DNA of 64,000 nt. Source: Longitalea arenae. Its GTDB lineage: Bacteria; Bacteroidota; Bacteroidia; Chitinophagales; Chitinophagaceae. Under the pieces are notes generated by a model. The model worked only from the letters and a program-made list of their open reading frames with translations, did not search any database and was not told the origin of the DNA. Both the position numbers and the translations under genes were made by a program. Where the stretch lies: contig NZ_JAFFJX010000011.1 of the NCBI RefSeq assembly GCF_016924755.1, forward strand, positions 124,001 through 188,000, given 5' to 3'. Shown here in pieces: positions 1-53,752 of the stretch; position 1 is the first letter of the stretch; each line of letters starts with the position of its first letter.

Positions 1-672
1 TCTGGGAAAGCGGGCGCTTTTATCAGCGCCGGAAATACCGGGGCCATGCTGGTTGGTGCTATGTATAGCATTAAACCCATCGAAGGTGTTCAGCGCCCCA
101 CTATCTCAACCATCATTCCAAAAGACAACGGAAACACCGGTCTGTTGCTCGATGTTGGCCTCAATGCCGACTGTAAACCCGAGCACCTGAACCAGTTCGC
201 CCTCCTGGGTTCGCTGTATGCGAAGCATATCCTGGGCATTGATAATCCGCGTGTTGCTTTGCTGAATATCGGTGAAGAAGAAGGTAAGGGTAACCTGTTG
301 GCGCAAGGTACCTATCCCCTGCTGAAAGAAAATGAGCAGATCAATTTCGTAGGCAATGTGGAAGGACGGGATATCCTGCTCGATAAAGCCGATGTAATGG
401 TGTGCGATGGATTTACCGGAAATGTGATCCTGAAAATGGCTGAATCATTATACGAGATCACGCACCGCAAAGAGATCAAACACGATTACCTCGATCGCTT
501 TAATTTTGAGCTCTATGGCGGAACCCCCGTGCTGGGTGTTGCCAAACCGGTGATCATTGGCCATGGCATTTCTCACGCCAAAGCCTTCAGTAATATGATC
601 CACCTGGCGCAGAAAATGATCGCCACCGACCTGCTGGGTAAAATGAAGACCAGTATCACGCCGAACGCTTAA
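1..672 (+). CDS. plsX: Phosphate acyltransferase PlsX, 3' part
   Basis: PlsX makes acyl-phosphate from acyl-ACP and phosphate, the first step of the PlsX/PlsY route to phospholipids, at the inner face of the membrane. The frame is open from base 1, where it encodes AFISAGNTGAM, a PlsX core motif. About 223 residues are visible and roughly 100 N-terminal residues lie outside the window, judging from the family's usual 310-350. CDGFTGNV and GHGISHAKA are further family motifs. The final residues TPNA and the stop are encoded by an intergenic word array that starts inside the gene. A strong hairpin terminator follows. Confidence 0.95.
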   Translation, partial: SGKAGAFISAGNTGAMLVGAMYSIKPIEGVQRPTISTIIPKDNGNTGLLLDVGLNADCKPEHLNQFALLGSLYAKHILGIDNPRVALLNIGEEEGKGNLLAQGTYPLLKENEQINFVGNVEGRDILLDKADVMVCDGFTGNVILKMAESLYEITHRKEIKHDYLDRFNFELYGGTPVLGVAKPVIIGHGISHAKAFSNMIHLAQKMIATDLLGKMKTSITPNA

Positions 673-703
673 CGCGGAACGCAAAACGCCGAACACGCCA
701 ACT
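658..703. repeat. Word array, GAACGC family (plsX tail)
   Basis: Degenerate repeats of words such as AACGCGGAACGC and AAACGCCGAAC with a period near 8. The array begins inside plsX and contains its stop codon. The first 18 bases are identical at 17 of 18 positions to bases 17984-18001, where the array likewise contains the stop codon of an unrelated gene. Confidence 0.8.
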
Positions 704-719
704 ATATCATTTAATATAA

Positions 720-758
720 ACGCCCATCCTGGTGTAACCGGGATGGGCGTTGTTTTTT
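720..758 (+). terminator. Intrinsic terminator of plsX
   Basis: A perfect 10-bp stem (720-729 with 741-750, ACGCCCATCC arm) with an 11-nt loop, followed by TGTTTTTT. Confidence 0.9.
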
Positions 759-811
759 GGTTCAATGGTTAATTGTGGTTCTACTGGTGCCAGCTGCGCC
801 GGCCGGCAGCT

Positions 812-819
812 TATTTTTG
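812..819 (+). promoter_or_regulatory. -7 element of the CPBP protease gene
   Basis: TATTTTTG fits the Bacteroidota TAnnTTTG element, just after the plsX terminator and 56 bases before the next start codon. No clear TTTG at -33. Confidence 0.5.
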
Positions 820-875
820 GCTTTTGTGATTTTTGTAGATACCTTCCGCAGCCAACACACAATTGATATTTACAG

Positions 876-1850
876 ATGAATGAGATCATTGGTTACCTGA
901 AGAACTACTTCCAATCCATCAACCGCACCGTTTTCCTGCTCATTACCCTGCTTGTAGCCATCGCCATCACCTGCAATTATACCCTTGGCATTGAACGTGC
1001 TATCGTTGCGTTTCAATCCTGGCCCCTGCGAATCGCCGGCTTTTTCCTGCTCTTTGCCTTTATCTTTTCCCTGGCCTGGCTGCTGCAATTTCTTCTGGCC
1101 CCGGAAACCATACCACTTTCCGCTGGCAGGCTCCCCATGCCCGCAGGACCGGAATCCGCCGGAAGCCGGATCTTTTTCATGCTGCTAATGGCAGCACCAG
1201 CTATTTTTGCCCTGAAGATCAGCTTTGACGTGGTCTCGCGTACCCTTACGGCGCCGTTAGCGTTTCCCTGGAACCAATATTGGTACAAGGTGCTCGACTG
1301 GCCATTAAAATTGTTGGTAGTAGCCCTGCCCGTGGTCGCCATCTGGCGCCTGGGCCGTTTTGATGATCCAATGGCCGGTTTGCAGGGCAAAGGGTTCCAG
1401 CTTCGGCCTTATCTGTTGTTATTGCTGTGTATGGTGCCGCTGATCGCCTTTGCGGCCACCCAGCCTGATTTCCTGCACACCTATCCCAAGGTGCAGCGCA
1501 TTGATGTGCTGGATCAATACGTGACCAATAGCCTTCCCTGGAAAGTGTTGTACGAGCTTTCTTATGGGATCGACTTTTTGACCATCGAATTCTTCTTTCG
1601 CGGATTTTTGGTGCTTGCATTTGCACGCTTTGCCGGTAAACATGCCATACTACCGGTAGCGGCATTCTACTGTGCTATACATTTCGGAAAGCCCCTGTTT
1701 GAATGTATCACCTCTTATTTCGGGGGCATCATTCTTGGCGCTGTAGTGTACAATACACGTAGTATCTGGGGAGGATTAATACTTCACCTCGGTATTGCCT
1801 GGCTCATGGAGCTGGCAGGCTACCTGGGGCATGTTTATAAAGGAGTGTAA
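876..1850 (+). CDS. CPBP-family intramembrane metalloprotease homologue
   Basis: A 324-residue polytopic membrane protein of the CPBP (CAAX protease and bacteriocin-processing, Abi) family. About eight hydrophobic segments are visible. The C-terminal third carries the family's motifs: IEFFFRGF (the EExxxR region, with Ile in place of the first Glu), AIHFGKP with the second-motif His, and LHLGIAW with a third His. These residues coordinate the metal in characterised members; substrates here are unknown. It has its own promoter after the plsX terminator and its ATG lies in ACAGATGAATGAG. Loss of one Glu of the pair could weaken catalysis, though many homologues keep only the second. Confidence 0.85.
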   Translation: MNEIIGYLKNYFQSINRTVFLLITLLVAIAITCNYTLGIERAIVAFQSWPLRIAGFFLLFAFIFSLAWLLQFLLAPETIPLSAGRLPMPAGPESAGSRIFFMLLMAAPAIFALKISFDVVSRTLTAPLAFPWNQYWYKVLDWPLKLLVVALPVVAIWRLGRFDDPMAGLQGKGFQLRPYLLLLLCMVPLIAFAATQPDFLHTYPKVQRIDVLDQYVTNSLPWKVLYELSYGIDFLTIEFFFRGFLVLAFARFAGKHAILPVAAFYCAIHFGKPLFECITSYFGGIILGAVVYNTRSIWGGLILHLGIAWLMELAGYLGHVYKGV

Positions 1851-1865
1851 AGCACCTATGCTGGA

Positions 1866-2069
1866 TTACAGCAAATAAAGATTTTTCTGTTTAATATAAG
1901 CACAAAATGGATATTCCCGGGCAATGGCGTTTAAACGGGCCACTGTTTCTTCGCTGGGCGGAGTGGGTTGTACATTCTCACGCAGGAGCTTATCTGCAAT
2001 AGTGCTGTTTTCGAAGGTGGGCGTTGCTGTGCTCGTAGCGGTTGCCAATGTGAAAGTTTTCTTTTTCAT
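1866..2069 (-). CDS. Small conserved-looking protein A (PPSEE/YPFC type)
   Basis: A 67-residue protein of unknown function. It starts KKKTFTLAT, is rich in Thr and Ala at the N-terminus, and ends in a segment PPSEETVARLNAIAREYPFC followed by AYIKQKN. A second gene 300 bases upstream (2369-2596) ends with the same segment (PPSEEVIAQLNRIAQEYPFC, YYKQK), so the two are paralogues. This conservation over about 27 residues with different N-terminal halves argues that both are translated. No signal peptide, membrane segment or known domain is evident. TTTTTG lies four bases before the ATG, suggesting a leaderless transcript. Confidence 0.6.
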   Translation of the reverse strand: MKKKTFTLATATSTATPTFENSTIADKLLRENVQPTPPSEETVARLNAIAREYPFCAYIKQKNLYLL

Positions 2070-2368
2070 GCGCCAAAAATTTACAAGTAGTGAAAAAATG
2101 TAATTGAACAGGCTTTCCGTTGGATACGTGCTACTAAAATCAGGACGACTTCATATGGCAGAAAAAAGAAAGAATCGGAATTCGTTTAATCTATGGCAAG
2201 TAGGAAACAAGGAAGAAAGTACTTAGGAAAATGATCTACTCAAAGATAGACCAAAAAATGTAAATGAGCCAGCTTTTAACAAAAAATATAAGTGCCCAGT
2301 ACCTGAAAAACGGGTTTATAAAGACAAGTACTTAGGTACACCCATAGTTTTATTCATATGCCATTTAA
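2070..2368. other. Spacer between the two small paralogues
   Basis: 299 AT-rich bases without a convincing gene. The 11-mer AAGTACTTAGG occurs twice (2217-2227 and 2326-2336), 109 bases apart; I cannot assign a role to it. Confidence 0.4.
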
Positions 2369-2596
2369 TCACAATGGATCATTTACTTTCTGTTTATAGT
2401 ATACGCAAAAAGGATATTCCTGCGCAATGCGATTTAGCTGTGCTATAACCTCTTCACTGGGTGGCGAAACTTTATTTACTATCTTAACCGGCTGCTCGCT
2501 GATGGTCTTTCTCTTCTTTATGCGGCGCGTATACTTCCGGGTGATAGCAGGCAACTCCAAAGCAGGAGCATACATAGTTGCCGATGTTTTCTTCAT
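2369..2596 (-). CDS. Small conserved-looking protein B (PPSEE/YPFC type)
   Basis: A 75-residue protein of unknown function, paralogous to the product of 1866-2069. The N-terminal half differs and is basic (TRKYTRRIKKRKT, residues about 23-35). The C-terminal 27 residues contain the shared segment PPSEExxAxLNxIAxEYPFC followed by xYxKQK. The pattern of a variable basic or Thr/Ala-rich head and a conserved tail with one Cys is unusual for such short proteins. No transmembrane segment. The two genes lie in tandem on the minus strand but probably do not form a tight operon because 299 bases separate them. Confidence 0.6.
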   Translation of the reverse strand: MKKTSATMYAPALELPAITRKYTRRIKKRKTISEQPVKIVNKVSPPSEEVIAQLNRIAQEYPFCVYYKQKVNDPL

Positions 2597-2934
2597 GCGT
2601 TAAATCTTTATTATGGTTATGAGATGATGGTAAACTAAATATGTATGTGCCACAACATGTGAATTGTGCACGTGCTACTACAAACATCAGGATAACCAGA
2701 TCATTCAACGGGTACCTGCTAAAGAGGACGTGAGTGAGGATTAACTATTCAAAATAAAGTTCGAGAACTGAGCTGTAATAATTGCGTTTTGAAAGTTATC
2801 AAATTTAGACCTTTTTGATATATAATCCATATTTTTTAACCAATTCAGCTAATAAAAAAACCGGATGACAAACAATGATCATCCGGTTGCTTATAAATCA
2901 ATTACTACTATCAAACGTTGTTCACACGCCGATC
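2597..2934. other. AT-rich intergenic region
   Basis: 338 bases that hold the upstream region of small protein B and, at its right end, the terminator of the DUF4397 gene. I see no gene. Confidence 0.5.
2851..2888 (-). terminator. Terminator of the DUF4397 lipoprotein gene
   Basis: Perfect 10-bp stem AACCGGATGA (2859-2868) with 2879-2888, 10-nt loop, followed on the minus strand by a run of seven T. Confidence 0.9.
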
Positions 2935-3666
2935 CTAATCAGCTGCCTGCAGTATTTCCAGGCCGAACTGATTCTTATCTGTTCCACCTTTGATACCCTT
3001 CAGAAAGATGGTATAAGCCTGCCCCTGCGCCAGGAAAACCGAAGTCCTTTGGGCAATGACTGAATCGGCACCCGCCTTCTTTACTATAATATTATAAGTA
3101 TTGGGAACCGTTCCGGTGAACTGGTTAAAGAAATCGCTTTGCGTATTATCAGCATGCTGACGGCCGGTCTCAATTTGCGAATTGTCTAAATACACATCTA
3201 CTTCGCCAATATCCGGGCTCATATGGAAAAACCGGTAATAGGCTTTGTCAGCTGTGAGCACCCGGTAATCATCCCTGATCCTGACTGCGCCCACATGGGT
3301 AGAGTCGATATTATACAGCAAGAGCGTATTATATTGAAGGGAGTCGTATAGGCCGGTACCCAGACTGGCCACCACGCTATCGCTGCCCGTTTTCTTAAAA
3401 ACGACGCCATAAGCCCCCGGCTCAAGCGCGGAATAAGCATCCGCCACCATACCTGGTGTTATTGAGGAAGATGCCGGCTGGGAATTTCCATTGAAAAAGA
3501 CCTGGATGGCAGGTGCCCTGGGCGCCAGATGCATTAATGACAAATATGTTTTTGGTGTAGGAGGGGTGGTTTGTGTCTCCTTCAAACAGCCACTTAACAA
3601 CAAGGATAAAAAAGACAGTGCGCCCAAAGCCAAAAAAACATTTTTTCTTACTTGCACAGTTTTCAT
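2935..3666 (-). CDS. DUF4397 lipoprotein
   Basis: A 243-residue predicted lipoprotein. The N-terminus has a basic start, a hydrophobic stretch and a lipobox LLSGC, so it is exported and lipidated. The rest resembles DUF4397, beta-rich repeats often found in Bacteroidota surface proteins: YLSLMHLAPRAPAIQVFFNG (residues about 42-61) and YRFFHMSPDIGEVDVYLDN (about 143-161) are two parallel copies of the repeat. Function is unknown; members are usually thought to be extracellular or outer-membrane proteins. The gene stands alone with its own terminator. Confidence 0.85.
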   Translation of the reverse strand: MKTVQVRKNVFLALGALSFLSLLLSGCLKETQTTPPTPKTYLSLMHLAPRAPAIQVFFNGNSQPASSSITPGMVADAYSALEPGAYGVVFKKTGSDSVVASLGTGLYDSLQYNTLLLYNIDSTHVGAVRIRDDYRVLTADKAYYRFFHMSPDIGEVDVYLDNSQIETGRQHADNTQSDFFNQFTGTVPNTYNIIVKKAGADSVIAQRTSVFLAQGQAYTIFLKGIKGGTDKNQFGLEILQAAD

Positions 3667-3844
3667 TTTTAGTTTAAAATATAATTATGGTGTTTAAACC
3701 TGGTGGCAACTTCACCAACTGGCCGGCTATCAGACCGCGAATGTACCAATTAGTTTAGCTGGATATAATGATTTTCTGGCCTTTATGACAATCAGCCAAT
3801 AGGCTCCGTTGCACCCGCTTTTATATTATAGCTGCTTATAAAGT

Positions 3845-3869
3845 AAAAAGGGCTCATTCAGCCCTTTTT
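3845..3869 (-). terminator. Terminator of the DUF6600 gene
   Basis: Perfect 10-bp stem AAAAAGGGCT (3845-3854) with 3860-3869 around a 5-nt loop; the minus-strand 3' side ends in five T. Confidence 0.9.
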
Positions 3870-3886
3870 GTATCGAAAAAATCATT

Positions 3887-5365
3887 TTATCCCTGCCGGA
3901 TCCAGCCGCCACGTCCCTGCCCCCGATCACCGCGGTTCTCTCCACCCTGGGGTGCTGTCCGCTGCTCCCGGCCAAACCCGCCCCTGTCTTCCTGGCTGCG
4001 GCGTTCAAACTGCGGTTGCTGCTGGGGCCTTTCGCGCATCAAACGCTCCTGTTGCTGCCTTCTTTCTTCAAACTGCCGGCGGTTGTTTTCGGCCTGGTTA
4101 TTTCGTTCCTGCATTATGCGCTGCTGCCGGTCACGTTCTTCGAACAAACGGCGGCTGTTCTCTGCCTGGGCATTCCGCTCGCGAATCAAACGCTCCTGCT
4201 GTTGCCTCCTTTCTTCAAACTGCCGGCGATCATTATCCCCGCTCCTTTCCCGGATCATCCGTTCGGGCTGCTGCCGCCTTGCTTCGAATGGATGGCGGTT
4301 GTTTTCGGCCTGGTTATTTCGCTCCCGCATCATGCGCTGCTGCCGGTCACGTTCTTCGAAGAAACGGCGGTTGTTCTCTGCCTGGGCATTCCGGTCGCGC
4401 GTCATGCGCTGTTGATCGGCTCTTTCCTCAAATGGGCGGCGAACGTCTTCCCCACTCCTTTGCCGCATCATTCGATCCGGTTGCGACCTGTCTGCAAAAC
4501 GACGGTCATTGTTACCGTGATTGGTTTCGAAACGCCGGTTCTCGCGCCTTCCATCGGCCATGTTCTGCTGTTGATCGCGGTTGAACCGCTGCACCCTTTC
4601 AGGCGCATAGCGGGCATTATCGCGGTTTACCCGGGGCCGGTAGATCGCCACTTCATTGTTGCGATAATTGGTTCTGCCTGGCCTGGCGGCGTCCCGCACC
4701 GACACGCTGCGAAACGGATCCCTGGCATAGCGGGCTACCTCTCGGTGGCCGGGCCCCGTGCGGAACACGTTCCGTTCATGATGATAATTATTAATGATAG
4801 TAGTGTTGTTAATAATGGTAGTGTTCCGTTGCACGTTGACGTAATAATTGGAAACACGCGGCGAAGCGATGTACTGCCTGTCTACAAAACACCAGTAATT
4901 AGCAGGGGGGTTATAATGGCCGAACGAAAGATTTACACTAAGCTGGAATTGCGGACCCAATGGCGCCCAGCCATAATAACTTCCGCCGCTGCGCCAGCAA
5001 ACCCAGGCCGGAGACCATTCATAACCGGGCATCCACAGCCAGCCATAATAGTCATCGTAAAACCAGCGGCCATAGTGGAAAGGCGCCCAGCCCCAGCTGT
5101 AATTCGACACCCACATCCAGCCAAAATCATCTGTAAAGACCCAATGGCCGTTGGTGCTATAAGGTCTGAAGCCGGCGCCGATATCAGGGCGCCATACATA
5201 ACCGTATTCAGGATAATCAATCCAGTTTCCATATGGCTCCAGCTCGTTGTAGAACGTCTGGTAAGAAACCTGCACCGATACCTGGGCAGTTGCTTTATGA
5301 GAGGCACTGCCAAACAGCAATACCATGAGTATTGTCGAAGTGCTGATTGCTTTGCATCGTTTCAT
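3887..5365 (-). CDS. DUF6600-type secreted protein with Arg/Gln/Glu-rich repeat tail
   Basis: A 492-residue exported protein. Residues 1-27 form a signal peptide ending near KATAQ. Residues about 35-170 are rich in Trp, Tyr and Gly (GNWIDYPEYGYVWRP, GWAPFHYGRWFYDD, YYGWLWMPGYEWSP), the pattern of the DUF6600 family. A linker with TTIINNTTIINN follows. From about residue 290 to 460 the chain consists of degenerate 23-25-residue repeats dominated by Arg, Gln, Glu and Asn, and it ends in a Gly/Arg-rich tail. The charged part is probably an extended helix or disordered. The envelope role is unknown. The opposite strand carries long spurious open frames caused by the composition. Confidence 0.8.
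   Translation of the reverse strand: MKRCKAISTSTILMVLLFGSASHKATAQVSVQVSYQTFYNELEPYGNWIDYPEYGYVWRPDIGAGFRPYSTNGHWVFTDDFGWMWVSNYSWGWAPFHYGRWFYDDYYGWLWMPGYEWSPAWVCWRSGGSYYGWAPLGPQFQLSVNLSFGHYNPPANYWCFVDRQYIASPRVSNYYVNVQRNTTIINNTTIINNYHHERNVFRTGPGHREVARYARDPFRSVSVRDAARPGRTNYRNNEVAIYRPRVNRDNARYAPERVQRFNRDQQQNMADGRRENRRFETNHGNNDRRFADRSQPDRMMRQRSGEDVRRPFEERADQQRMTRDRNAQAENNRRFFEERDRQQRMMRERNNQAENNRHPFEARRQQPERMIRERSGDNDRRQFEERRQQQERLIRERNAQAENSRRLFEERDRQQRIMQERNNQAENNRRQFEERRQQQERLMRERPQQQPQFERRSQEDRGGFGREQRTAPQGGENRGDRGQGRGGWIRQG
4020..4500. repeat. Coding tandem repeat inside the DUF6600 gene
   Basis: About six degenerate copies of a 69-75 bp unit. On the protein level units begin RNAQAENNRR or RSGDNDRRQ and end in RQQQERLIRE or RDRQQRMMRE, partly alternating between two subtypes. 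Such tracts are prone to copy-number change. Confidence 0.75.
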
Positions 5366-5509
5366 TTAGGTATATTTTAGCATACACGATCGGGAGAGAA
5401 GTCAGGCTTGCGGCTTATTTCTTCCTTATCAAGATAAAACGAATACAATGCCAGCGTTCAGGCAATTATGTCTTTTACAAATACTTTATGTGAAGAAAGG
5501 TATAAAACT

Positions 5510-5797
5510 GATGTGCTGATGTGCTGATGGCTGGTGAAAAACGGTTCCGATAATCAATGAGGCCCTGAAAGAATGTGATAATGTGATAATTCGATAATGT
5601 GATAATGAAATGCAACAGTTCCTATAACCAGGAGATTGTAAAAGAATGTGACAACCCGGTTACCGGGACAAGTTGTGATAATTCGATAATGGAATAATGA
5701 AATACAGTGGAAATGGTAAAGGTGTGAAACGTTACAGGCCCCTGTAACTTCTAACCAGGAACCTGTAACGCAGAAAACGACAACCGGCAACCGGTAG
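5510..5797. repeat. Mosaic of three word arrays
   Basis: Between two genes lie, in order, GTGCTGATGTGCTGATG words (5512-5528), GTGATAATGTGATAATTCGAT words (5574-5608, again 5674-5700) and GTTACAGG/ACCTGTAAC words (5731-5797). The perfect inverted pair GTTACAGG-cc-CCTGTAAC is at 5731-5748. The same three word families appear separately elsewhere in the window. The 435-base gap from 5366 to 5800 holds nothing else I can recognise. Confidence 0.75.
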
Positions 5798-5800
5798 CAA

Positions 5801-6900: not shown

Positions 6901-7149
6901 AGGTGGCTAGTGGCAATTGGCGAGCGGCGGGTGGGAATAGCAAGTAGAAAAAGGCAGCAATGGCAAATGGCGAGTGGCGAATGGGGAATGGCAGAAATGA
7001 CGCGAGAGTCGCTAAATGTCGCGAGTGACGAATAAAAGCACCACTAGCTACTAACTATCAGCCACTAGTTACTCACTCACCGTTTAACCGTAGCTTTGCC
7101 CTTCATCATTGACCATTGCCCATTGACCATTCACCATTGACCATTGCCC
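6901..7149. repeat. Interleaved inverted word arrays upstream of the J-domain gene
   Basis: Four blocks: A 6901-6933 (GGCTAGTGGCAATTGGCGAG), B 6953-6992 (ATGGCAAATGGCGAGTGG), A' 7039-7081 (CCACTAGCTACTAACTATC) and B' 7101-7149 (CATTGACCATTCACC). A' is complementary to A and B' to B, giving the order A-B-A'-B'. B' runs up to one base before the start codon of the next gene. A further word block (GCGAGAGTCGC, GTCGCGAGTG) lies at 6999-7030. Confidence 0.75.
7091..7098 (+). promoter_or_regulatory. -7 element of the J-domain gene
   Basis: TAGCTTTG between blocks A' and B' of the word array. If used, block B' is the 5' untranslated region. Confidence 0.45.
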
Positions 7150-7150
7150 A

Positions 7151-9100: not shown

Positions 9101-9226
9101 AATACAGTTACAGGTTACAAGTTGCAGGGGAACAGGGGCGAGCACGAGCTGCATCTTGAAACACAGCAACCTGGGACTTGTAATTGCAACCGGTTGCAGG
9201 CAACCGGCGCCTGGTGACCGGTAACT
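9101..9226. repeat. Word array, GTTAC/CCGGT family, upstream of the ABC-F gene
   Basis: Words ACAGTTACAGGTTACAAGTT (9103-9122) and, inverted, CAGCAACC and GGACTTGTAATTGC; then ACCGGTTGCAGGCAACCGG and GTGACCGGTAACTG (9189-9226). It ends ten bases before the promoter element of the next gene. Confidence 0.65.
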
Positions 9227-11166: not shown

Positions 11167-11317
11167 TCAGTTACCTGTTGCCAGTTACCAGTTGCCGGGG
11201 CACAAACCAATGGCAGGCTGAGTATTGGCAGACTTGCTGCATTAAGGGCCTGGTAACCGGAAACCGGAAACCGGTAACAACAACATTCACCATTGCCCAT
11301 TTATCATCCACCATTCA
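11167..11317. repeat. Word arrays between the ABC-F and M28 genes
   Basis: CAGTTACCTGTTGCCAGTTA words (11170-11200), then the inverted arm GGTAACCGGAAACCGGAAAC (11253-11280), then ATTCACCATTGCCC words (11284-11317). The arms of the first family enclose about 50 bases. Confidence 0.7.
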
Positions 11318-13870: not shown

Positions 13871-13873
13871 ACG

Positions 13874-13961
13874 ATATGCTGATTAGCTGATGTGCTGATG
13901 TGCTAATGAATACATGCTTTCGCCATTAGCACATTAGCTAATTAGCAAATTAGCTAATTGT
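13874..13961. repeat. Inverted word array, GCTGAT/TTAGC family
   Basis: Left arm GCTGATTAGCTGATGTGCTG words (13878-13907), loop of about 15 bases, right arm CATTAGCACATTAGCTAATT (from 13923). The arms are complementary, so the transcript would fold into a long A/U-rich hairpin. It begins four bases after a stop codon, between convergent genes, and may act as the terminator. Confidence 0.8.
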
Positions 13962-18002: not shown

Positions 18003-18320
18003 AAATACTCTATTAATACAACTGGTTTGCGTGCCTGCTGGTGACCAGATTAATCAACGCAAGGCATAATCCCCCCGAGGTGTTATACGCAGGTAATTTG
18101 TGTCTGCCCAGCCAAAGCCCTGGTGGGAACTTATGCGTTGTACACTCCGGGTTAACCGTTGAGCGTCCGGCGTTCTGCGTTCCGCGTTTAGCGTTTTGCA
18201 TTGTCGTTCAGCATTGAGCGTTCTGCGCTCGAGTTTAGCTTTTGCATTGCCGTTCAGCATCGAGCGTTCTGCGTTCCACGTTCCGCTTTCCGCATTTTAA
18301 TCACTCACCAATTTTCTACT
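18003..18320. other. Spacer between the small exported protein and the thioredoxin-like lipoprotein
   Basis: About 320 bases. The centre (18003-18154) is non-repetitive and carries no convincing gene; the rest is the GCGTTC word array. Frames on either strand here are products of the repeat. Confidence 0.5.
18155..18297. repeat. Word array, GCGTTC family, right arm with 48-bp tandem duplication
   Basis: Words GCGTTCTGCGTTCCGCG, the complement of the plsX-tail words. Within it a unit of about 48 bases is duplicated: TTTTGCATTGTCGTTCAGCA (from 18194) and TTTTGCATTGCCGTTCAGCA (from 18240), each continuing into GAGCGTTCTGCG. It ends 23 bases before the next start codon. Confidence 0.75.
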
Positions 18321-19753: not shown

Positions 19754-19760
19754 AGCTTAT

Positions 19761-19802
19761 AAAAAGTAATCCCTCCCGGTGTTTCGGGAGGGATTACTTT
19801 TT
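19761..19802 (+). terminator. Bidirectional terminator between convergent genes
   Basis: Perfect 18-bp stem AAAAAGTAATCCCTCCCG (19761-19778) with 19785-19802, 6-nt loop. The A/T ends serve the FKBP gene on one strand and the DUF4139 gene on the other. Confidence 0.93.
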
Positions 19803-19809
19803 ATGTTTA

Positions 19810-21671: not shown

Positions 21672-21763
21672 TAGTTTACAGGTTTCAGGTTACAGCGCGT
21701 GCGAAACTGCTGTTTTGAGCTTTGTTATAAAGCCCTGTAACAGGTACCTTGTAACCGGTACCG
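21672..21763. repeat. Inverted word array, GGTTACAG family
   Basis: GTTTACAGGTTTCAGGTTAC (21676-21695) and, inverted, CCTGTAACAGGTACCTTGTA (21733-21752), CCGGTACC. It lies upstream of the DUF4139 gene and downstream of the phosphorylase terminator. Confidence 0.7.
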
Positions 21764-27498: not shown

Positions 27499-27585
27499 AC
27501 AGCTCAGTTATTCAGTTATTCATCTTGCGACTACTGTATTAACTTAATAACTTATGAACGAATAACTCAGGAACTGAATAGCTAC
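27499..27585. repeat. Inverted word array filling a convergent gap, CAGTTATT family
   Basis: CAGTTATTCAGTTATTCATC (27506-27525), loop, then GAACGAATAACTCAGGAACT (27556-27575). The arms are complementary. It occupies the entire 83 bases between the stop codons of mntH and the Crp-like gene. Confidence 0.8.
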
Positions 27586-30230: not shown

Positions 30231-30269
30231 TCGGCCCCCGGTTAACAATAAACGGGTTACATATAAGCA

Positions 30270-30307
30270 AAAAGCGCCTTCCGGCCCAGCCCGGCAGGCG
30301 CTTTTTT
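30270..30307 (+). terminator. Terminator of icd
   Basis: Stem AAAAGCGCCT (30270-30279) with 30296-30305, followed by TTTTTTAT. Confidence 0.9.
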
Positions 30308-31017
30308 ATAACTGCCCGGCCGAAAAAAAGGCCCCTCCCGTAAACCGGGAGAAGCCTTGTGATGATAATACCCCTTAACTTACCTATTTCAATATTGTTG
30401 TTTTTAGTAACTACGGAAAAAAGCTACATTATTTGTGCCTGACCTTTCCTTCACCATAAAAATGCTGTTAAGGAAAGACTAAACCCCAAACTGACGACCC
30501 ATTCACCATTTTTGCGGATAGTAGCCTGTGACAATATTTCTACAAAACAAGTCCCCCCGGTGTAGCGGGAGGACTCCTTGAAATGATTGATTAAACCCTA
30601 AACCTGTAATTATATAGATGCAGAACCACTATGAGCTTAGCGGTTAATCATCACCTGTTATGCAGGGCCGATGATCTTTTTTATTGACAGCACATGCAAT
30701 AAAATCGTTGCGCCTTCAGTTAAGTATTCGAGTTAACAATGAAATAATCGCATGTGCTAACATTAAATATGCCGTGCCAGGCGGTGCGAGAAATGGGAAG
30801 CGACTACAGCGATGATGCCTGTAAAATAGCAGCATAATCATTATCTTAGATATTAGTACAAATAATATTTTGCTGTTAACCCGAAAAGGCCGAACGTTAT
30901 TTTTTAAAATTGAATTTACTTTTCCAGTATAAGTCTTCTTGCCAGGGGAACGCCTATGTACATGTGAAGGATTAAACAAAAGTACGGCCGGCGTTCCTAT
31001 TTTATTTTCTACCAAAC
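30308..31017. other. Gene-free region with two further hairpins
   Basis: About 700 bases without a convincing gene. Hairpin 1 (30328-30357) has arms AAGGC-CTCCCG and CGGGAG-GCCTT around TAAAC. Hairpin 2 (30546-30580) has AGTCCCCCCG with CGGGAGGACT around GTGTAG. Both resemble C-rich stems with short loops. The rest is unremarkable; the frame at 30716-31051 is probably spurious. A small RNA could be encoded here but nothing proves it. Confidence 0.45.
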
Positions 31018-31053
31018 GAAAATGTTCCGATAGCCAGGGCCATCGGAACATTT
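31018..31053 (-). terminator. Terminator of the GH20 gene
   Basis: Stem AAATGTTCCGAT (31020-31031) with 31042-31053, extended by GCC/GGC and a 2-nt loop. The T-run after it is weak. Confidence 0.65.
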
Positions 31054-31084
31054 GCTTTCATAATCAAATTATCACATTAGCTGG

Positions 31085-33963: not shown

Positions 33964-34016
33964 TCGAGTTACCGGTTACCGGGTGCCAGTTCCCGGTAAC
34001 TGGTAACCGGTAACTG
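33964..34016. repeat. Inverted word array, GGTTACCGG family
   Basis: AGTTACCGGTTACCGGG (33970-33986), 8-base loop, then CCCGGTAACTGGTAACCGGT (33994 on). The arms are complementary and make a hairpin of about 17 bp. It fills the space between the UspA stop and 12 bases before the LysR start. Confidence 0.82.
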
Positions 34017-34027
34017 GCATACGCAAC

Positions 34028-36181: not shown

Positions 36182-36325
36182 GCTTGAGTTATTAAGTTCA
36201 TTGGTTCCTGAGTTATTAAGTTACCATAACGGAGTCTGCCACACATTAATAGTATGGTACAGGTTTTAGCTAACTTTCACTATGAACTTACTAAAAAACT
36301 CAATAACTGAATAACTCAGAAACTT
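36182..36325. repeat. Inverted word array, GAGTTATTAAG family, between thrC and aguA
   Basis: TTGAGTTATTAAGTTCATTG (36184 on) and CCTGAGTTATTAAGTT (36208 on); on the far side ACTCAATAACTGAATAACTC (36298-36317). The array fills the convergent gap and reaches the stop codon of both genes. Confidence 0.8.
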
Positions 36326-37375: not shown

Positions 37376-37578
37376 TTGGTGCTTGGTTCACAGTTAGAAG
37401 TTCAAAGTTCGAAGTTCACAGTTCAAAGTTTCTAGTTACCAGTTTCCGGTTGAAAGTCACCGGTTGCAGGATTCAGGTTCCTGGTTACAGGGCTTCATTG
37501 CAGTTGCATACTGCACCTCGATGCTCCTTATATTGCAGCAGCTGCGACACGGTCCCTGCAACCTGAAACCTGAAACTC
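37376..37578. repeat. Word arrays between aguB and aguA
   Basis: AGTTCAAAGTTCGAAGTTCA (37398 on) of the GTTCAAAG family, then GTTACCAGTTTCCGGTTG and GGTTGCAGGATTCAGGTTCC (to about 37488). The inverted arm CCCTGCAACCTGAAACCTGA (37554 on) encloses about 65 bases. Two word families are joined here. Confidence 0.75.
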
Positions 37579-39363: not shown

Positions 39364-39379
39364 AGTTAAAATTGAGCCG

Positions 39380-39387
39380 CAAAGGTA
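39380..39387 (-). promoter_or_regulatory. -7 element of bshB1
   Basis: TACCTTTG on the minus strand, 16 bases before the start codon. Confidence 0.55.
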
Positions 39388-39388
39388 A

Positions 39389-39635
39389 TAAACAGTTTGT
39401 GGTTTATGGTTTGTGGTTTGTTGTTATTTCCGCCGTTTATAAAGGTTTAACAGTTGCTTTCTTCCGGAAATTCAAGCATTTAACGGTTTGAGGTTTATGG
39501 TTTGTGGTTTGTCGTTTGTAGTTATTCCGCCCATTGTAAATGTTTACCAGATGCTTACTTCGCGAAATTCAGGCAGCCGAAAACAGTTTAGACCTTTCGA
39601 AAGTGAGCAACCATAAACCACAAACCATAAACTCT
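39389..39635. repeat. Word arrays, GGTTTGTGGTTTATGG family
   Basis: Three blocks: GTTTGTGGTTTATGGTTTGT (39394 on), TTTGAGGTTTATGGTTTGTG (39486 on) and the inverted CATAAACCACAAACCATAAA (39612 on). Period 8. The blocks are 70-90 bases apart. The third is complementary to the first two. Confidence 0.8.
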
Positions 39636-39659
39636 ATCCTGTTAACGATAACATCCCAT

Positions 39660-41043: not shown

Positions 41044-41076
41044 AGTAAATCGTAAAATCTAAAATCGTAAATCGAA
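41044..41076. repeat. Word array, AAATCGTAAAATC family
   Basis: AGTAAATCGTAAAATCTAAA, then ATCGTAAATCG, ending directly at the lpdA start codon. It occupies the position of the ribosome-binding region. Confidence 0.6.
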
Positions 41077-42480: not shown

Positions 42481-42503
42481 TAGGATTACTCTTCCATAAA
42501 AAG

Positions 42504-42537
42504 AAGGATCACCTGGTTTCAGGTGATCCTTTTTTTA
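42504..42537 (+). terminator. Terminator of lpdA
   Basis: Stem AAGGATCACCTG (42504-42515) with 42520-42531, 4-nt loop, followed by TTTTTT. Confidence 0.93.
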
Positions 42538-42539
42538 TC

Positions 42540-42660
42540 GTGAATGGTGAATGGTCAACGGTGAGTGAGAACCCGAAAGTGCAACAGCCTGAAAATTCGC
42601 GAGCCACACTATAATTCGGAAAACTTAAAATCCGTGAACCCACTCACCACTCACCTACTG
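42540..42660. repeat. Inverted word array, GAATGGTGAATGG family
   Basis: GTGAATGGTGAATGGTCAAC (42541-42560), GGTGAGTGAG; inverted arm CCCACTCACCACTCACCTAC (42639 on). About 65 bases lie between. The right arm touches the stop codon of the DUF4197 lipoprotein gene. Confidence 0.8.
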
Positions 42661-44579: not shown

Positions 44580-44583
44580 CCCA

Positions 44584-44645
44584 TGTTTACAGTTCAATGT
44601 TCTAAGTTCATAGTTTAAGCTTCTTCGTTCTTTGTAAACTATGAA
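44584..44645. repeat. Word array, AGTTCAAAG family, left arm of the four-helix-bundle unit
   Basis: TTTACAGTTCAATGTTCTAA, then GTTCATAGTTTAAG. It contains a perfect 11-bp inverted pair TTCATAGTTTA (44607-44617) with TAAACTATGAA (44635-44645). Complementary in word content to 45161-45203. Confidence 0.78.
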
Positions 44646-44714
44646 ATATGGTTTATATAGCTCTCAGGCTTTCTCATAGTAGCATTTATCATATATACCT
44701 CATTAAAAGTTAGA

Positions 44715-45155
44715 ATGGCTACTTTTACCTGTTTTGAAGAAATTAAAGCCTGGCAAAAAGCAAGAATGCTCTGCGCTAAAATTCATTCACTTTCTATCAC
44801 GACAGATCTGGCAAAAGATTACAAATGAAAGGACCAGATCAATGGCTCCAGCGGCTCAATTATGGATAACATCGCAGAAGGTTTTGGGAGAGGAGGCAAT
44901 AAAGAATTTGTTCAATTTCTTTGCATCCCAATTGGATCTGTATGTGAATGTCAATCCCGGTTACACCGCTTGTTGGACAGGAACTATATCAATAAGCCAA
45001 TATTTGATGAGCTATATTATTTGTGTAATGAAATCAGAAAAATGATTTTTTCATTGATTCTTTACATTAAAAAAACCAGCAGAAAAGGAGTAAAATTTAA
45101 AATTCGCCAAAACCGGAGAAAGACAACGCCCCTCCCAACGCAGATGAAACCTTAA
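44715..45155 (+). pseudogene. Four-helix-bundle (S23/IVP-type) protein gene with in-frame TGA
   Basis: A frame of 147 codons that encodes a four-helix-bundle protein of the S23/TIGR02436 type, the group that includes 23S rRNA intervening-sequence proteins and the Avd proteins of diversity-generating retroelements. FEEIKAWQKARMLCAKIH, then IMDNIAEGFGRGGNKEFVQF and LHRLLDRNYI are family text. One TGA (44826-44828) interrupts it between DYK and KDQI, where the family usually has Leu or Arg; a single TTA-to-TGA change would suffice. The frame resumes without shift to 45155. It is flanked by inverted word arrays. Pseudogene is likely; recoding cannot be excluded. Confidence 0.85.
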
Positions 45156-45160
45156 ATCAT

Positions 45161-45203
45161 GACTTTGAACTTTGAACTGTGAACTTTGAACTTAAAACTT
45201 AGT
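45161..45203. repeat. Word array, CTTTGAACT family, right arm of the four-helix-bundle unit
   Basis: GACTTTGAACTTTGAACTGT, then GAACTTTGAACTTAAAAC, period 9. It is the inverse of the left arm and contains the stop codon of the convergent MFS gene. Confidence 0.8.
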
Positions 45204-46346: not shown

Positions 46347-46351
46347 GGCGC

Positions 46352-46380
46352 CAAAATTACGATGCGCTGCTAATCACAAA
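46352..46380 (-). promoter_or_regulatory. Promoter fused to the MFS start codon
   Basis: On the minus strand TTTG (46380-46377), 17 bases, TAATTTTG (46359-46352), then five bases and ATG at 46346. A leaderless transcript is implied. Confidence 0.6.
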
Positions 46381-46717
46381 AACATTTTTGCATCAATTTC
46401 TTCTTTTTACACAACCATTGTCGTTTTGCAAACGTAATTCTGGCTATACAAAGTTTGCGTACAAAAGGTGGTTAGGAATTCGAATAAATGTTCAACCAGA
46501 CAATAGATAAGATTTATAACCGTTAATGCAGTCTGATTGATATATTTCTTTAAATTTACAAAACGGGTTTTCAATTTATACGCCCTAAAGGCTCAGTGGC
46601 TTTCCAACCAGCAATCATTTCCTCTGACTAGTAGCATCAAATCCCTTCCAAACCAGGCTACGTTTTCGTGACAGTCATGAAAACAAGGTGTTTTTTTGAC
46701 ATAATACTTACAATTTT
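46381..46717. other. Upstream region of the histidine kinase gene
   Basis: About 340 AT-rich bases with no gene. It contains the imperfect palindrome GTTTTCGTGAC-a-GTCATGAAAAC (46662-46684; one G-T mismatch), 33 bases before the start codon, a candidate operator. Confidence 0.5.
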
Positions 46718-48652: not shown

Positions 48653-48660
48653 TACTTTTG
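48653..48660 (+). promoter_or_regulatory. -7 element of the HAD gene
   Basis: TACTTTTG, 34 bases before the ATG at 48695. It overlaps the longer in-frame extension and supports the shorter start. Confidence 0.55.
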
Positions 48661-48694
48661 CGGTGTTTTTTTATTAAATGCACGGGGAATTCTT

Positions 48695-49363: not shown

Positions 49364-49407
49364 TGCCTGGCTGTGCTGCACCTTGAAACTGTCTGGGTGT
49401 GGCACAC

Positions 49408-50610: not shown

Positions 50611-50646
50611 GAAACGATAATACCGATTTTTTTAATGCGGCAGCTA

Positions 50647-51834
50647 TTAAATATATTGCTGTTGTGCAATCTTGTTATTATCAATCATCTTATACAGGGT
50701 TCGCACCGAAGCCGCGGAGGTATATCCGTCTGCCGGCGTGTGCATCACATAATCAACCAGGCGGTCGATGCTCGATTCAGCTACATGCATGCGGGTATCT
50801 GAAGAAGCATAATAGATCAATACACGGCCATCCTCATCCACCACCCAGCCATTGCCAAACACTACATTCGATACATCCCCTACCCTTTCTTCGCCTTCAG
50901 GGGCAATAAAATAACCACCGGGTTTGTAAATGATCTTCGTCAGATCGTTCAGATCGGTCATAAACATATATAAAACATAACGCAGACCAGCAGCTGTATT
51001 TCGAACGCCATGCGCCAAATGCAACCAGCCAAACGCTGTTTTTATGGGTTGTGGCCCCAACCCGTTTTTCAATTCAGAAATCGTATGATAGACCCTCCTG
51101 TCTAGCACCACTTCTTTATGAATGACCGCCTGTTCTATGGAACTGCTCAACCCGAAACCAATACCGCCACCGGTACCGGCGTCGATAAACCCATCCTGTG
51201 GCCGGGTATAAAAAGCATACTGCCCGTCGACAAATTCCGGATGCAGCACCACATTCCGTTGCTGCGGCGATGGGGTTTTCAGATCGGCCAGCCGCTCCCA
51301 TTTTTTCAGGTCTTTCGTACGGGCAATGCCACATTGGGCAATAGCCGAAGACTGATCCGAGGGCAGCGCCTGGGGATCGCGGCGTTCGGCACAGAACAAA
51401 CCGTAGATCCAGCCGTCTTCATGCTGCACCACCCGCATATCGTACATATTGGTATCCTCGATCTCCGTCTCCGGCATCAGCACCGGGTAATCCCAAAACC
51501 GGAAATTATCGATGCCATTCTCACTCTCGGCCACCGCAAAAAAAGATTTCCGGTCCGACCCCTCTACCCGCGCTAATAAATAATATTTTCCATTCAATTT
51601 TATGGCGCCGGCATTGAGCACCGAATTAACAGCGATCCGTTCCATTAAATACGGATTGGTTTTCTCATTGAGATCGTATCGCCAGAAGAGGGGCGCATGC
51701 CGGTTCGTTAATACCGGGTGTTTATACCGGCAATAAATACCATTCTCCTCTTCTGCTTTTTCATTGGGACGGGTGATCAATTTTTCGTGCGCTTTTTTCA
51801 GCATCTCCAATCGCGTCAAAAAATTCTTATCCAT
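50647..51834 (-). CDS. GH130 mannosylglucose phosphorylase
   Basis: A 395-residue five-bladed-propeller enzyme of GH130. [56 protein letters not shown] and [20 protein letters not shown] fit the 4-O-beta-mannosyl-glucose phosphorylases (GH130 subfamily 1), which yield alpha-mannose-1-phosphate and glucose. No signal peptide; cytoplasmic. It lies between symporter and epimerase, the same combination as in the B. fragilis mannan cluster. Assignment to mannosylglucose over other beta-mannosides rests on this context. Confidence 0.92.
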
Positions 51835-51858
51835 TACATTTCAATTTTAAAGTCTGAT

Positions 51859-53691
51859 TTAGTTTTCAAGTTTATCCCACCAGGTCTTTTTGAGCACCAG
51901 TACAATCACCGTCAGCATACCAACGGTGATCAGTAATGGCAGCTTCAGCCATAACACGATGTACATCGGCAGGATAGTTAAACAACACTGGCCGGTAATT
52001 CCCAAAGCCACATTGAACATATCTCGCTTAAAATTTTTATTCGGCAGAAAGGCAGGGTCTTCCGCCATCACTTTCACCCGGATGGGCTTCCAGCATCCCC
52101 AGGGCTTTACGGTTTTGTAAAACTGCTTTAATACAGGCTCTGCCGTGGGCGGCGTGAGCCAGGTGCCTGTAAAACAACCGGCGAGTGAGATCAGGAAGAG
52201 CAGGGGCCAGCTGTACAGGGGCAGGGTATTCTTAAATATATATGGGAATACCAGCGCGGCTGCAATGCCGCTGGCCATACCCCAGAAAAACCCACTGGCG
52301 TTGAAACGCCACCAGTACCACTTCAACATATTGGCGGCAATATAGCCGCCATATAATGCGCCTACGATCCATTGCAACACACTGTTCACATCTTTGGCAA
52401 AAAAGCCAAGCGTAACACCAATGGCCACTACCACGATACCAACCAGGTAATTGGCCCTGATCACCTGTTTGGTACTTGCATGCGGATCGATGTACTTCAG
52501 GTAAATATCATTTACAATATAGGCCTGTGCGGCATTCAGCGTGCCGGAAAAAGTGCCCATAAAGGCGCCGAGCAATCCGGTCAACACCAGGCCCAGAATG
52601 CCAACCGGTAAAAAACCGTTGATGGCGGCCGGTAAGATCTTCTCAAAATCAGTCCCCTTGGCCGTACGCAGATCGAGCTGGTTATAATATAACAAAGCCA
52701 ATACGGTCAACCCGATGATCATCGAATACCTTACCGGTAATAAGATGATGGAAACGAAGCCCGACATTTTGCTGGCATCCTTCGGCGAACGGGTCGACAA
52801 TACCTTTTGCATATCGTAATTGGGCGCTGGTCCGGCCAGGCTCGCAAATAAACCTTTGAACAACATCATCATAAAGAAGAAACCGAACAACCCAAAACCA
52901 TCTTCTGCGATCTTCTTATTCGCATCCGGCACCAGCCCGCTCCAATCGAGGTTCAAGTGCCAGTTGAAAAAGGGATTGGTCCAGCCATTGGGCACAGCCA
53001 GCTGGGTACCGGGCCCGTGCAAACGCAGCATGGCAATAACCGCAATCGAAATGCAGGCGACTATCATGATCGCATACTTGATCACATCCCCCAGTACAAT
53101 ACTATGCATGCCACCCAGGATGGAATAGAACATCGCAAACAGCGTAAATACAATACCATACAGATGCGGCACATATTCCGGCGCTATGGTGAAGGGCACA
53201 TAGGGCTGAACCATATGCCAGGGAACAAAGATCTCCATGAACTTACCCAGCCCTACAAAGCCATAGGCCAGGAACCCAAAACAGCTTAAAAGGGCAAAGG
53301 CTACCACTACATTGTGCGAACTCTTTACGCCCCGCCCGCTTGAGCCGAAACGGGTAACGAGCCATTCAGCGCCCGTACTGGCATTTGAGCGCCGCACCCA
53401 TTTGGAAATGAACATCATCATGAACACCTGGTTGAACACGGGCCATAACCAGGGGATCCAGATCGATTTCATGCCATATACGAAACAAAGGGCTACCATC
53501 CACATAGTGCCGCTGATATCGAACATATCACTGGCATCGCTCAACCCTAACATGTACCAGGGCAGCGACTTGCCACCCAGCAAATAACTTTCTTTATTCT
53601 TGCGGGCCCGCTTGCGCATTACCCAACCTATTACTACCATGGCCGCCAGGTACAGAACAACGATACTTATATCTAAAACTGTTAATCTCAT
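51859..53691 (-). CDS. Sodium/solute symporter (SSS family)
   Basis: A 610-residue inner-membrane carrier with about 14 membrane segments. LDISIVVLYLAAMVVIGWVM, YLLGGKSLPWYMLGLSDASD and TGAEWLVTRFG are typical of the SSS family. By position it should import mannobiose or short manno-oligosaccharides from the periplasm. The gap to the upstream GH26 gene (53692-53819) holds a word array, whereas all other gaps of the operon are under 40 bases. Confidence 0.9.
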   Translation of the reverse strand: MRLTVLDISIVVLYLAAMVVIGWVMRKRARKNKESYLLGGKSLPWYMLGLSDASDMFDISGTMWMVALCFVYGMKSIWIPWLWPVFNQVFMMMFISKWVRRSNASTGAEWLVTRFGSSGRGVKSSHNVVVAFALLSCFGFLAYGFVGLGKFMEIFVPWHMVQPYVPFTIAPEYVPHLYGIVFTLFAMFYSILGGMHSIVLGDVIKYAIMIVACISIAVIAMLRLHGPGTQLAVPNGWTNPFFNWHLNLDWSGLVPDANKKIAEDGFGLFGFFFMMMLFKGLFASLAGPAPNYDMQKVLSTRSPKDASKMSGFVSIILLPVRYSMIIGLTVLALLYYNQLDLRTAKGTDFEKILPAAINGFLPVGILGLVLTGLLGAFMGTFSGTLNAAQAYIVNDIYLKYIDPHASTKQVIRANYLVGIVVVAIGVTLGFFAKDVNSVLQWIVGALYGGYIAANMLKWYWWRFNASGFFWGMASGIAAALVFPYIFKNTLPLYSWPLLFLISLAGCFTGTWLTPPTAEPVLKQFYKTVKPWGCWKPIRVKVMAEDPAFLPNKNFKRDMFNVALGITGQCCLTILPMYIVLWLKLPLLITVGMLTVIVLVLKKTWWDKLEN

Positions 53692-53721
53692 TATACTTTG
53701 CTTCTCTTTCTTATTTGTGAG

Positions 53722-53752
53722 TCACCGGTTACCAGTTACCGGTTACCGGTTT
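53722..53752. repeat. Word array inside the mannan operon
   Basis: GTCACCGGTTACCAGTTACC, then GGTTACCGGTTTCC: same family as 33964-34016 but in one orientation, so no long hairpin. It separates the genes for extracellular steps from those for import and intracellular steps. Confidence 0.75.

Follow-up and report, generated by a model that had tools for sequence, protein, structure and literature searches.

What produces the arrays of short, similar words that occupy so many intergenic spacers of the soil bacterium Longitalea arenae, and why do the words change from spacer to spacer when their layout does not? We addressed this question in a window of 64,000 nucleotides (contig NZ_JAFFJX010000011.1, positions 124,001 to 188,000), for which an initial annotation had described such arrays in about twenty spacers and had suggested that they were written by slippage of a polymerase or reverse transcriptase on a short template. 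Our analysis points to a different origin, which we consider probable: a two-part element built around a gene of the PF05635 family, in a manner resembling the REP/RAYT system, whose ends, either in place or as orphan copies, make up the arrays.

Periodic word arrays in intergenic DNA

Intergenic DNA of the window shows autocorrelation peaks at lag 7 (z 10.9), lag 8 (6.4), lag 14 (7.2) and lag 21 (4.6) and is flat at lag 9, while coding DNA carries neither the lag 7 nor the lag 8 signal. When every spacer of at least 40 bp was compared with 200 dinucleotide shuffles of itself, 14 of 42 held an array at p<=0.01 and 16 of 42 at p<=0.05, where about 0.4 and about 2 are expected; ten of these 14 arrays have period 7 and four have period 8 (Table 1). 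The arrays are thus real, although the count of about twenty spacers was slightly too high. Over 593 kb of the genome, 45 period-7 arrays were observed against 1.2 after shuffling, 30 period-8 arrays against 2.0 and six lag-9 arrays against 1.4, the remaining lags being close to background. An array was present in 53 of 329 spacers, compared to 3.0 in shuffled DNA. In the window and across the 593 kb alike, the arrays survive the dinucleotide shuffles that the initial annotation had named as a possible refutation.

Table 1. The PF05635 element and the word arrays of the window, in order of position
Positions	Strand	Feature	Remark
658..694	.	Short GAACGC array, end of first gene	TRF score 53; spacer p 0.1, not significant
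5508..5704	.	GCTGATGT and GATAATGT arrays, period 8	
6959..7150	.	AATGGCG arm (6959-6992) and inverted CCATTGA arm (7102-7150)	
9107..9126	.	GGTTACA-type array, divergent spacer	p 0.02; inverted words further right by reading
11168..11278	.	Two-armed GGTTACC orphan	N. yeongjuensis without spacer at this site
13873..13959	.	Two-armed orphan hairpin, GCTGATGT family, period 8	Convergent genes either side
18151..18291	.	GCGTTCT arrays, period 7	Partner arm looked for, none found
21673..21762	.	GGTTACA arm and inverted partner	p 0.025
27504..27580	.	Two-armed orphan, TCAGTTAT family, period 8	Fills convergent stop-to-stop spacer
33968..34017	.	Compact two-armed orphan, GGTTACC family, period 7	
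36187..36323	.	Two-armed orphan, GAGTTATT family, period 8	Convergent spacer
37392..37576	.	AGTTCAA/GGTTACC-type arm (37392-37451) and inverted CCTGAAA arm (37555-37576)	
39395..39632	.	Two GGTTTGT arms and one inverted arm, period 7	
42537..42655	.	GTGAATG arm and inverted CCACTCA arm	Convergent spacer
44585..44615	.	Left arm of PF05635 element, AGTTCAA-type words, period 7	p 0.08 alone
44736..45050	+	PF05635 (23S_rRNA_IVP / S23 / four-helix bundle) gene	One in-frame TGA
45162..45200	.	Right inverted arm of PF05635 element, ACTTTGA words	
53721..53754	.	Single GGTTACC array	Partner arm looked for, none found

Word families and their polarity

The words fall into a limited set of families. Every family joins a conserved core to a variable linker and has a period of its own. 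Families recur at distant sites, as the initial annotation had noted, and genome-wide many families share one architecture. Its description of drifting copies applies to the linker, whereas the core is kept: phase variance was 69.1 compared to 44.2±3.1 (p 0.001) among the 67 of 182 arrays that could be tested. A frequent layout that had escaped notice consists of two inverted arms whose words point inward, and among neighbouring pairs 50 were convergent and none divergent. Strict scoring finds an inverted partner in the same spacer for 16 of 80 orphan arrays, so that many of the rest stand alone or are only weakly partnered. Just inside the arms the motif AATAC is enriched 4.8-fold (27 of 172 flanks), which is suggestive only. 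The AAATCGTA tract at 41045-41074 was rejected as a word family; the window, L. luteola and N. soli share it without a difference and N. yeongjuensis has a nearly identical copy, and it thus represents a conserved leader outside the word-array system.

That the arrays stem from simple slippage and drift, or from a word-writing polymerase, appears highly improbable to us. Tandem order, variable copy number and the variation of words and periods among orthologous sites all speak for such a process, but it accounts neither for the 50:0 polarity and the contrast of conserved core and variable linker, nor for coding and shuffled DNA at background, nor for families that are tied to genes and missing from sampled relatives without PF05635 (see below). 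Plain slippage or chance was rejected on the basis of the shuffles, the coding DNA, the polarity and the core/linker structure, and families that are few per genome and match the words of PF05635 genes further speak against word writing by slippage or reverse transcription. A linked polymerase gene, which the initial annotation had suggested looking for, did not emerge either: none of the six RVT_1 matches (contigs C2, C5, C8, C16, C34 and C37) shares a contig with the six PF05635 genes (C1, C19 and C22), and none is flanked by arrays. Some room is left for a copying process, since words and periods differ between orthologous sites, the two arms of a locus tending to agree where they do, and since PF05635 is related in fold to Avd, a partner of reverse transcriptases.

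PF05635 genes between inverted arms

All six PF05635 genes of this genome are flanked by inverted arms, each with its own word and with arm scores of 12.5-23.5, whereas only 0.7-1.7% of 424 control genes pass the arm thresholds (1.7% at 12.5 or more, 0% at 18 or more). The arms of PF05635 loci are able to pair. In the window, the neighbors of the element are a DAO-family gene on one side and an MFS_1 gene on the other; the PF05635 gene is present at the same site in five relatives and absent from N. vici, and the window copy may be a pseudogene because of its in-frame TGA.

The family is common, with members in 232 of 296 sampled Bacteroidota genomes. Arms of the same locus outscore mismatched arms at 42 of 53 Chitinophagales loci, at 13 of 30 loci in wider Bacteroidota (the other 17 fail the arm test) and at 12 of 16 plasmid loci (four fail), the last comprising 13 cyanobacterial loci and one each from Azospirillum, Gemmatirosa and Bernardetia. 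The arm-gene-arm layout hence recurs in Cyanobacteriota, Pseudomonadota and Gemmatimonadota, four phyla in all, and orphan arrays on cyanobacterial plasmids are sparse (five in 150 kb over three plasmid stretches). The predicted structure of one PF05635 protein of this genome (pLDDT 93) matches 2gsc, 2rld and Avd 4dwl, the last with a Foldseek probability of 1.00, TM 0.73/0.89 and E 0.16; solved relatives have five chains.

PF05635 proteins have no known function according to the available part of PMC4990558, and the arms could in principle be the ends of elements moved by another transposase or recombinase, with PF05635 as cargo or regulator. The family's lack of a known catalytic activity, the new occupation of spacers between species and the presence of six RVT_1 and two Y1_Tnp matches in the genome are all compatible with this alternative, which we nevertheless judge unlikely, as no word arrays flank the Y1_Tnp or RVT_1 loci (800-bp flanks; the best segments scored 9.5-13.0 and were not word arrays) and loss or absence of PF05635 accompanies absence of arrays.

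Gene words match orphan words

The tie between PF05635 genes and arrays extends to the words themselves. Orphan arrays with a gene's word occur at 20.6/Mb in its own genome and at 5.3/Mb in congeners without such a gene, and this excess was seen for 36 of 41 genes (Wilcoxon p 3e-9; 41 of 47 genes usable). Whole-genome word counts in ten congeners, for which all 73 PF05635 matches were inspected, gave 43-250 for GATTT (period 8) in five genomes with a GATTT-flanked gene and 0-35 in five without, and 1-51 for GGTTTNT (period 7) in five genomes with a gene flanked by that word and 0 in five without. These two words separate fully over the ten genomes, whereas GCTRAT does so only partly: G005 and G003 carry related gene-flanking words yet have five matches and one, and 11 occur in G002, which lacks a gene of this kind. 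It should be noted that these lineages are not independent, since the ten congeners are related.

Six congeners bearing PF05635 (23S_rRNA_IVP, hereafter IVP) hold 96-440 arrays of period 7-9 per Mb, while IVP-lacking G011 and G015 held none in 100 kb each. In IVP-lacking G014 (54 kb), raw matches appeared at all lags; those read were poly-A or AT-rich, and the rest lie in an unreadable stretch. Outside the genus, relatives with and without IVP cannot be told apart by the RGTT pattern alone, because several IVP bearers have no RGTT word.

These observations can be set against the view that the arrays serve as transcription terminators in both directions or as hairpins at mRNA 3' ends, in which only pairing is selected, words are therefore free to drift and PF05635 is a passenger. 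Arrays are indeed commonest in convergent spacers (16 of 59, compared to 31 of 200 tandem and 6 of 70 divergent ones), occur no more than 15 nt away from 29 of 66 stop-codon ends and accompany better folding (median z -1.6, n=49, against -0.8, n=155, in spacers without them); at 19754-19809, moreover, four relatives carry a GC stem with a T run, and in N. caeni a GGTTTGT hairpin takes its place. Such a role leaves unexplained, however, why PF05635 genes lie within arms when 424 controls do not, why orphans match in word, why the core is conserved and why the sampled IVP-lacking relatives have no arrays. Divergent spacers hold arrays too, and canonical terminators are not scarcer where arrays occur (3 of 16 convergent spacers with an array, 6 of 39 without), so that terminator replacement was rejected as the whole story; as a general explanation we find this view unlikely.

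Orthologous loci

The loci that fail the arm test, the small share of orphan arrays with a strictly scored partner, the sparse orphans on cyanobacterial plasmids and the partial fit of GCTRAT weigh against the two-part element that we favor. So does the near immobility of the gene: 48 of 52 PF05635 gene pairs that are at least 60% identical share flanking genes, so that highly similar genes are nearly always orthologous and hardly move. Word cosine exceeds 0.5 in 27 of these 52 pairs and in about 1.5% of pairs below 50% identity. Once orthologous pairs were set aside, the correlation between protein and word was small (Mantel r 0.12, p 0.04), as it was among pairs less than 50% identical (r 0.07, p 0.12). 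Protein-word co-evolution was accordingly rejected as stand-alone proof, since its signal comes almost wholly from orthologous loci, and our argument rests on the matching of gene and orphan words instead.

At orthologous sites, words and even periods differ between species, and in such cases one arm of a locus tends to resemble the other. When concerted change of the arms was gauged on whole flanks, the locus's own arm was the best match in 16 of 35 loci (9 expected): in 11 of 14 loci of the four groups with between-species word differences, in 5 of 15 where the words are the same, and in 0 of 6 loci of the group to which the window belongs, whose comparison is affected by coding similarity from an inverted copy in N. 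soli. With the arms cut out first the figure was 16 of 20 against 5, a cut that favors the own arm. Among 40 orthologous spacers in five species, 19 were empty in all (7.6 expected) and seven were occupied in four or five (0.9 expected), a clustering to be read with the facts that spacers differ in tolerance and that the AAATCGTA leader is included. New occupation of spacers was seen between species; ten orthologous spacers showed no target-site duplication, their flanks being too diverged for a firm answer.

Comparison with known systems

The view that known repeat classes do not fit the arrays well was supported, as we could not assign them to a described class, and so was the statement that they are not CRISPR-like, since they consist of 7-9 bp tandem units with drifting linkers and not of identical repeats and unique spacers. 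Assignment to one described repeat family was rejected: Rfam gave no gathering-level match in the window, and no RAYT or reverse transcriptase accompanies the arms. Simple satellites or microsatellites differ in that the arrays have a conserved core, a partner gene and fixed polarity, and MITEs in that the arms here are degenerate word arrays that vary between copies and flank a gene not known as a transposase.

REP/RAYT (REPtron) systems are among the closest known ones. There, the RAYT gene is flanked by two inverted repeats and its presence correlates with the abundance of cognate repeats (PMC2817692), and both features are found here. The protein is, however, a four-helix bundle and not a Y1 HUH (IS200/IS605-like) nuclease, and a degenerate array of 7-9-bp words takes the place of one palindrome. 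The 23S rRNA intervening sequence (IVS) likewise has an S23-family ORF inside an insert; in Coxiella it is removed by RNase III and carries tandem GACAGAT heptamers just upstream of the S23p start, in copy numbers that differ between strains (PMC4990558). The elements described here differ in lying between protein genes and not in the 23S rRNA gene, and in having many word-matched orphan relatives.

Avd is a reverse-transcriptase partner in diversity-generating retroelements (DGRs). The resemblance of PF05635 to this accessory protein has been pointed out before (PMC10053308), and our structural model likewise predicts a fold relative of Avd, but PF05635-bearing contigs here have no reverse transcriptase. 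Direct repeats of the heptamer TAACTGA are described from intergenic regions of Beggiatoaceae, Cyanobacteria and some Bacteroidetes, and Bacteroidetes are said there to hold other heptamers too (PMC4679880). By our own reading, the reverse complement of TAACTGA contains AGTT, the core of several families here; these are, however, described as direct repeats of one word, and the accessible text of PMC4679880 makes no link to PF05635. Cyanobacterial STRRs are tandem heptamers in Nostoc and Calothrix, and PF05635 genes on plasmids of these two genera are flanked by inverted heptamer arrays. A link between PF05635 and word arrays was not found described in the open-access PMC literature.

A model for the element and its significance

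Our data show the layout and its specificity compared to other genes, the polarity, the core-plus-linker structure and the agreement of gene and orphan words. In its full form, the element comprises a small PF05635 gene between two inverted arms; in each arm a word of 7, 8 or 9 bp, with a conserved core of 3-5 nt and a variable linker, recurs some four to five times. The orphan form is one or two intergenic arms without the gene, often abutting a stop codon. Each PF05635 gene has one word family and the orphan arrays of a genome are of the families of its own PF05635 genes. The gene, which inverted repeats flank, is mostly present once and mostly passed on vertically, with cognate repeats scattered elsewhere. 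We infer that PF05635 recognizes the words and mobilizes them: its ring would recognize the tandem cores, probably in a single-stranded or hairpin form of the arms, and help orphan arrays to arise or persist, although strand transfer would require another, separate enzyme. As a side effect, orphan hairpins may substitute for transcription terminators.

A bolder version, which we put forward tentatively and would not bet on, is that a pentameric Avd-like ring reads about five tandem cores, one per subunit with the linker as flexible spacer, in the way that the TRAP ring reads RNA. Each PF05635 lineage would then keep its own word, and rings in at least four phyla would sustain a nuclease-free hairpin population that could account for cyanobacterial heptamer repeats, the heptamers of the 23S rRNA IVS and the word arrays of Bacteroidota.

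We know of no agreed origin of heptamer repeats in the STRR literature. For the intergenic heptamer repeats of Cyanobacteria and Beggiatoaceae, none is given in the available part of PMC4679880. The link proposed here gives PF05635 proteins a predicted binding site and heptamer repeats a predicted reader, and should gene and orphan words prove to agree across independent lineages as well, this would constitute a second system of the REP/RAYT kind, built from an unrelated protein that is kin to a DGR accessory factor.

Periodic word arrays in the intergenic spacers

The initial annotation held that the spacers carry arrays of short degenerate words, and this was borne out by comparison with dinucleotide shuffles, as 14 of the 42 window spacers contain period 7 and 8 arrays at p<=0.01, far over the shuffled level. 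Across 593 kb of the 7.28-Mb genome (40 contigs), 45 arrays were found at lag 7 (1.2 shuffled), 30 at lag 8 (2.0) and 6 at lag 9 (1.4), and the lag spectrum is sharp, with the remaining lags and coding DNA near background. Families do recur at distant sites, as had been proposed, and each keeps one fixed period at every recurrence: 7 for GGTTACC, GGCAATA, GGTTTGT, AGTTCAA and CCATTGA, 8 for GATTTTGAG-type words, GCTAATGT, GATAATGT and GAGTTATT, and 9 for GTCAAAAGA. The drift ascribed to the copies is uneven: within arrays, 3-5 consecutive positions are conserved and the linker varies (phase variance 69.1 vs 44.2±3.1; best three-position core 60 mismatches vs 88.6±5.1; 67 of 182 arrays testable).

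Many arrays are two-armed, the right arm being the reverse complement of the left. Same-family neighbours at most 300 bp apart were convergent in 50 cases, divergent in 0 and in the same direction in 21 (eleven family patterns, six genomes); when partners were scored strictly, one was present in the same spacer for only 16 of the 80 arrays. Median array length is 4.4 units, and arms of PF05635 genes mostly span 4.0-4.9, with detection needing about three units.

The closest relatives, judged by one protein, are Longitalea luteola (93%) and Niastella (89-90%), of the Chitinophagaceae. Orthologous spacers often keep an array with a different word in each species (see table). Where words differ between species within a locus group, a locus's own two arms were the best match in 11 of 14 loci; with all groups pooled, this held for 16 of 35 against 9 expected. 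An 11-bp family forms a separate repeat class, with lag-11 arrays at 27-35 per Mb in N. soli and N. yeongjuensis.

Features of the window and of orthologous sites (window coordinates)
Position	Feature	Observation
1851-2934	1.1-kb region	Length conserved in four relatives; two similar small antisense reading frames (by eye)
4032-4411	~72-bp repeats	Within reading frame 3887-5365
19754-19809	Spacer	GC stem and T run in four species; GGTTTGT hairpin in N. caeni instead
27499-27581, 49364-49407	Spacers	N. soli orthologues filled by a further repeat family, whose inverted repeats surround GACCTGTCAGG
30231-31084	Region	N. soli and N. yeongjuensis orthologues: 11-bp clean tandem family AACAGGGACCT
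39364-39659	Spacer	GGTTTGT in three species, GGTTATTG (period 8) in N. soli, AACTTTA in N. yeongjuensis
41045-41074	AAATCGTA tract, a conserved leader	L. luteola and N. soli carry the identical sequence; a pyridine-nucleotide-disulphide oxidoreductase gene lies downstream
42481-42654	Spacer	Five species, five different words
44580-45191	PF05635 gene enclosed by arms	Arm words in five relatives: AGTTCAT, AGTTCAC, AGTTTAC, AAGTTGAAAGTTTT, GGTTATTG (period 8; gene inverted)
46347-46717, 60837-61056, 61936-62145	Long spacers, possible regulatory leaders	Alignable in all relatives compared; adjoining spacers turn over

A PF05635 gene between inverted arms

One window array pair encloses a gene of PF05635, the S23/23S-IVP four-helix-bundle family. 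Five relatives share this gene at the corresponding position, flanked by arms with other words; in N. vici both the gene and the arms are missing there. All six PF05635 genes of the genome lie between inverted arms, of six different words, with arm scores of 12.5-23.5. Among 424 control genes, 1.7% scored at least 12.5, 0.7% at least 14 and none 18 or more. Just inside the PF05635 arms, AATAC is 4.8-fold enriched (27 of 172 flanks); the enrichment extends over several word families, and AATAC is possibly a boundary motif.

The words of genes and of orphan arrays, which lie in spacers without a PF05635 gene, go together. Flanks were inspected for all 73 PF05635 matches in 10 genus genomes, and 41 of 47 genes in six of these had usable arms. 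The genome that carries a gene has 20.6 orphan arrays of that gene's word per Mb, and genomes lacking a gene of that word have 5.3 per Mb; own-genome density was higher for 36 genes and lower for 5 (p 3e-9). Whole-genome counts of GATTT(8) were 250, 175, 142, 81 and 43 in five genomes with a GATTT-flanked gene vs 35, 9, 8, 2 and 0 in five without (the 0 in a 61%-complete genome). GGTTTNT counts were 51, 32, 25, 11 and 1 with the gene and 0 in five genomes without; GCTRAT counts fit gene presence only partially. No period 7-9 arrays were found in 100 kb from each of two family genomes without a PF05635 match, vs 96-440 per Mb in six congeners that carry PF05635. Because all these genomes are related, the contrasts do not count as independent events.

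Same-locus arms exceeded the 95th percentile of mismatched arms at 42 of 53 loci in the genus and its order and at 13 of 30 sampled across Bacteroidota, where 232 of 296 sampled genomes have PF05635. Relatives occur on 42 plasmid records, mainly of Cyanobacteriota, and 12 of 16 plasmid loci examined passed the same test, with words including TAGGGAG, AGGTGAC, AACAGGG and TTAGCTG; the Azospirillum locus (period 7) and the Gemmatirosa locus (period 8) have such arms as well. On three cyanobacterial plasmids (loci L316, L318 and L325) the gene sits within cas gene clusters, twice with cas6/cas4 and once with cas10/cmr3.

Protein and relation to known systems

The model of one PF05635 protein (mean pLDDT 93, 32-sequence alignment) matches XCC0516 (2gsc) and BT_0352 (2rld), each with five chains in its structure, and more weakly Avd (4dwl) and the Avd chains of the reverse-transcriptase complex of diversity-generating retroelements. 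To our knowledge, no nuclease activity is known for the protein, and the contigs carrying PF05635 genes in the genome hold no reverse transcriptase. XCC0516 is described as a homopentamer (PMC4990558), and the likeness to Avd has been noted (PMC10053308). We suggest that a PF05635 ring would read the word cores; the agreement between five units per arm and five subunits per ring may be more than chance.

A single gene flanked by inverted repeats, with cognate repeats scattered over the genome, is also how REP sequences and their RAYT transposase partner are organised, as described in PMC2817692, but the protein here falls outside that class. Heptamers lie directly upstream of the S23p gene in the Coxiella 23S rRNA intervening sequence (PMC4990558), and heptamer direct repeats are reported from Beggiatoaceae, Cyanobacteria and five Bacteroidetes (PMC4679880). 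The 23S intervening sequence is probably one relative of the present elements. A link of PF05635 with word arrays was not found in the open-access papers searched and, because no known system combines such a protein with word-matched orphan arrays, their pairing is what is new here.
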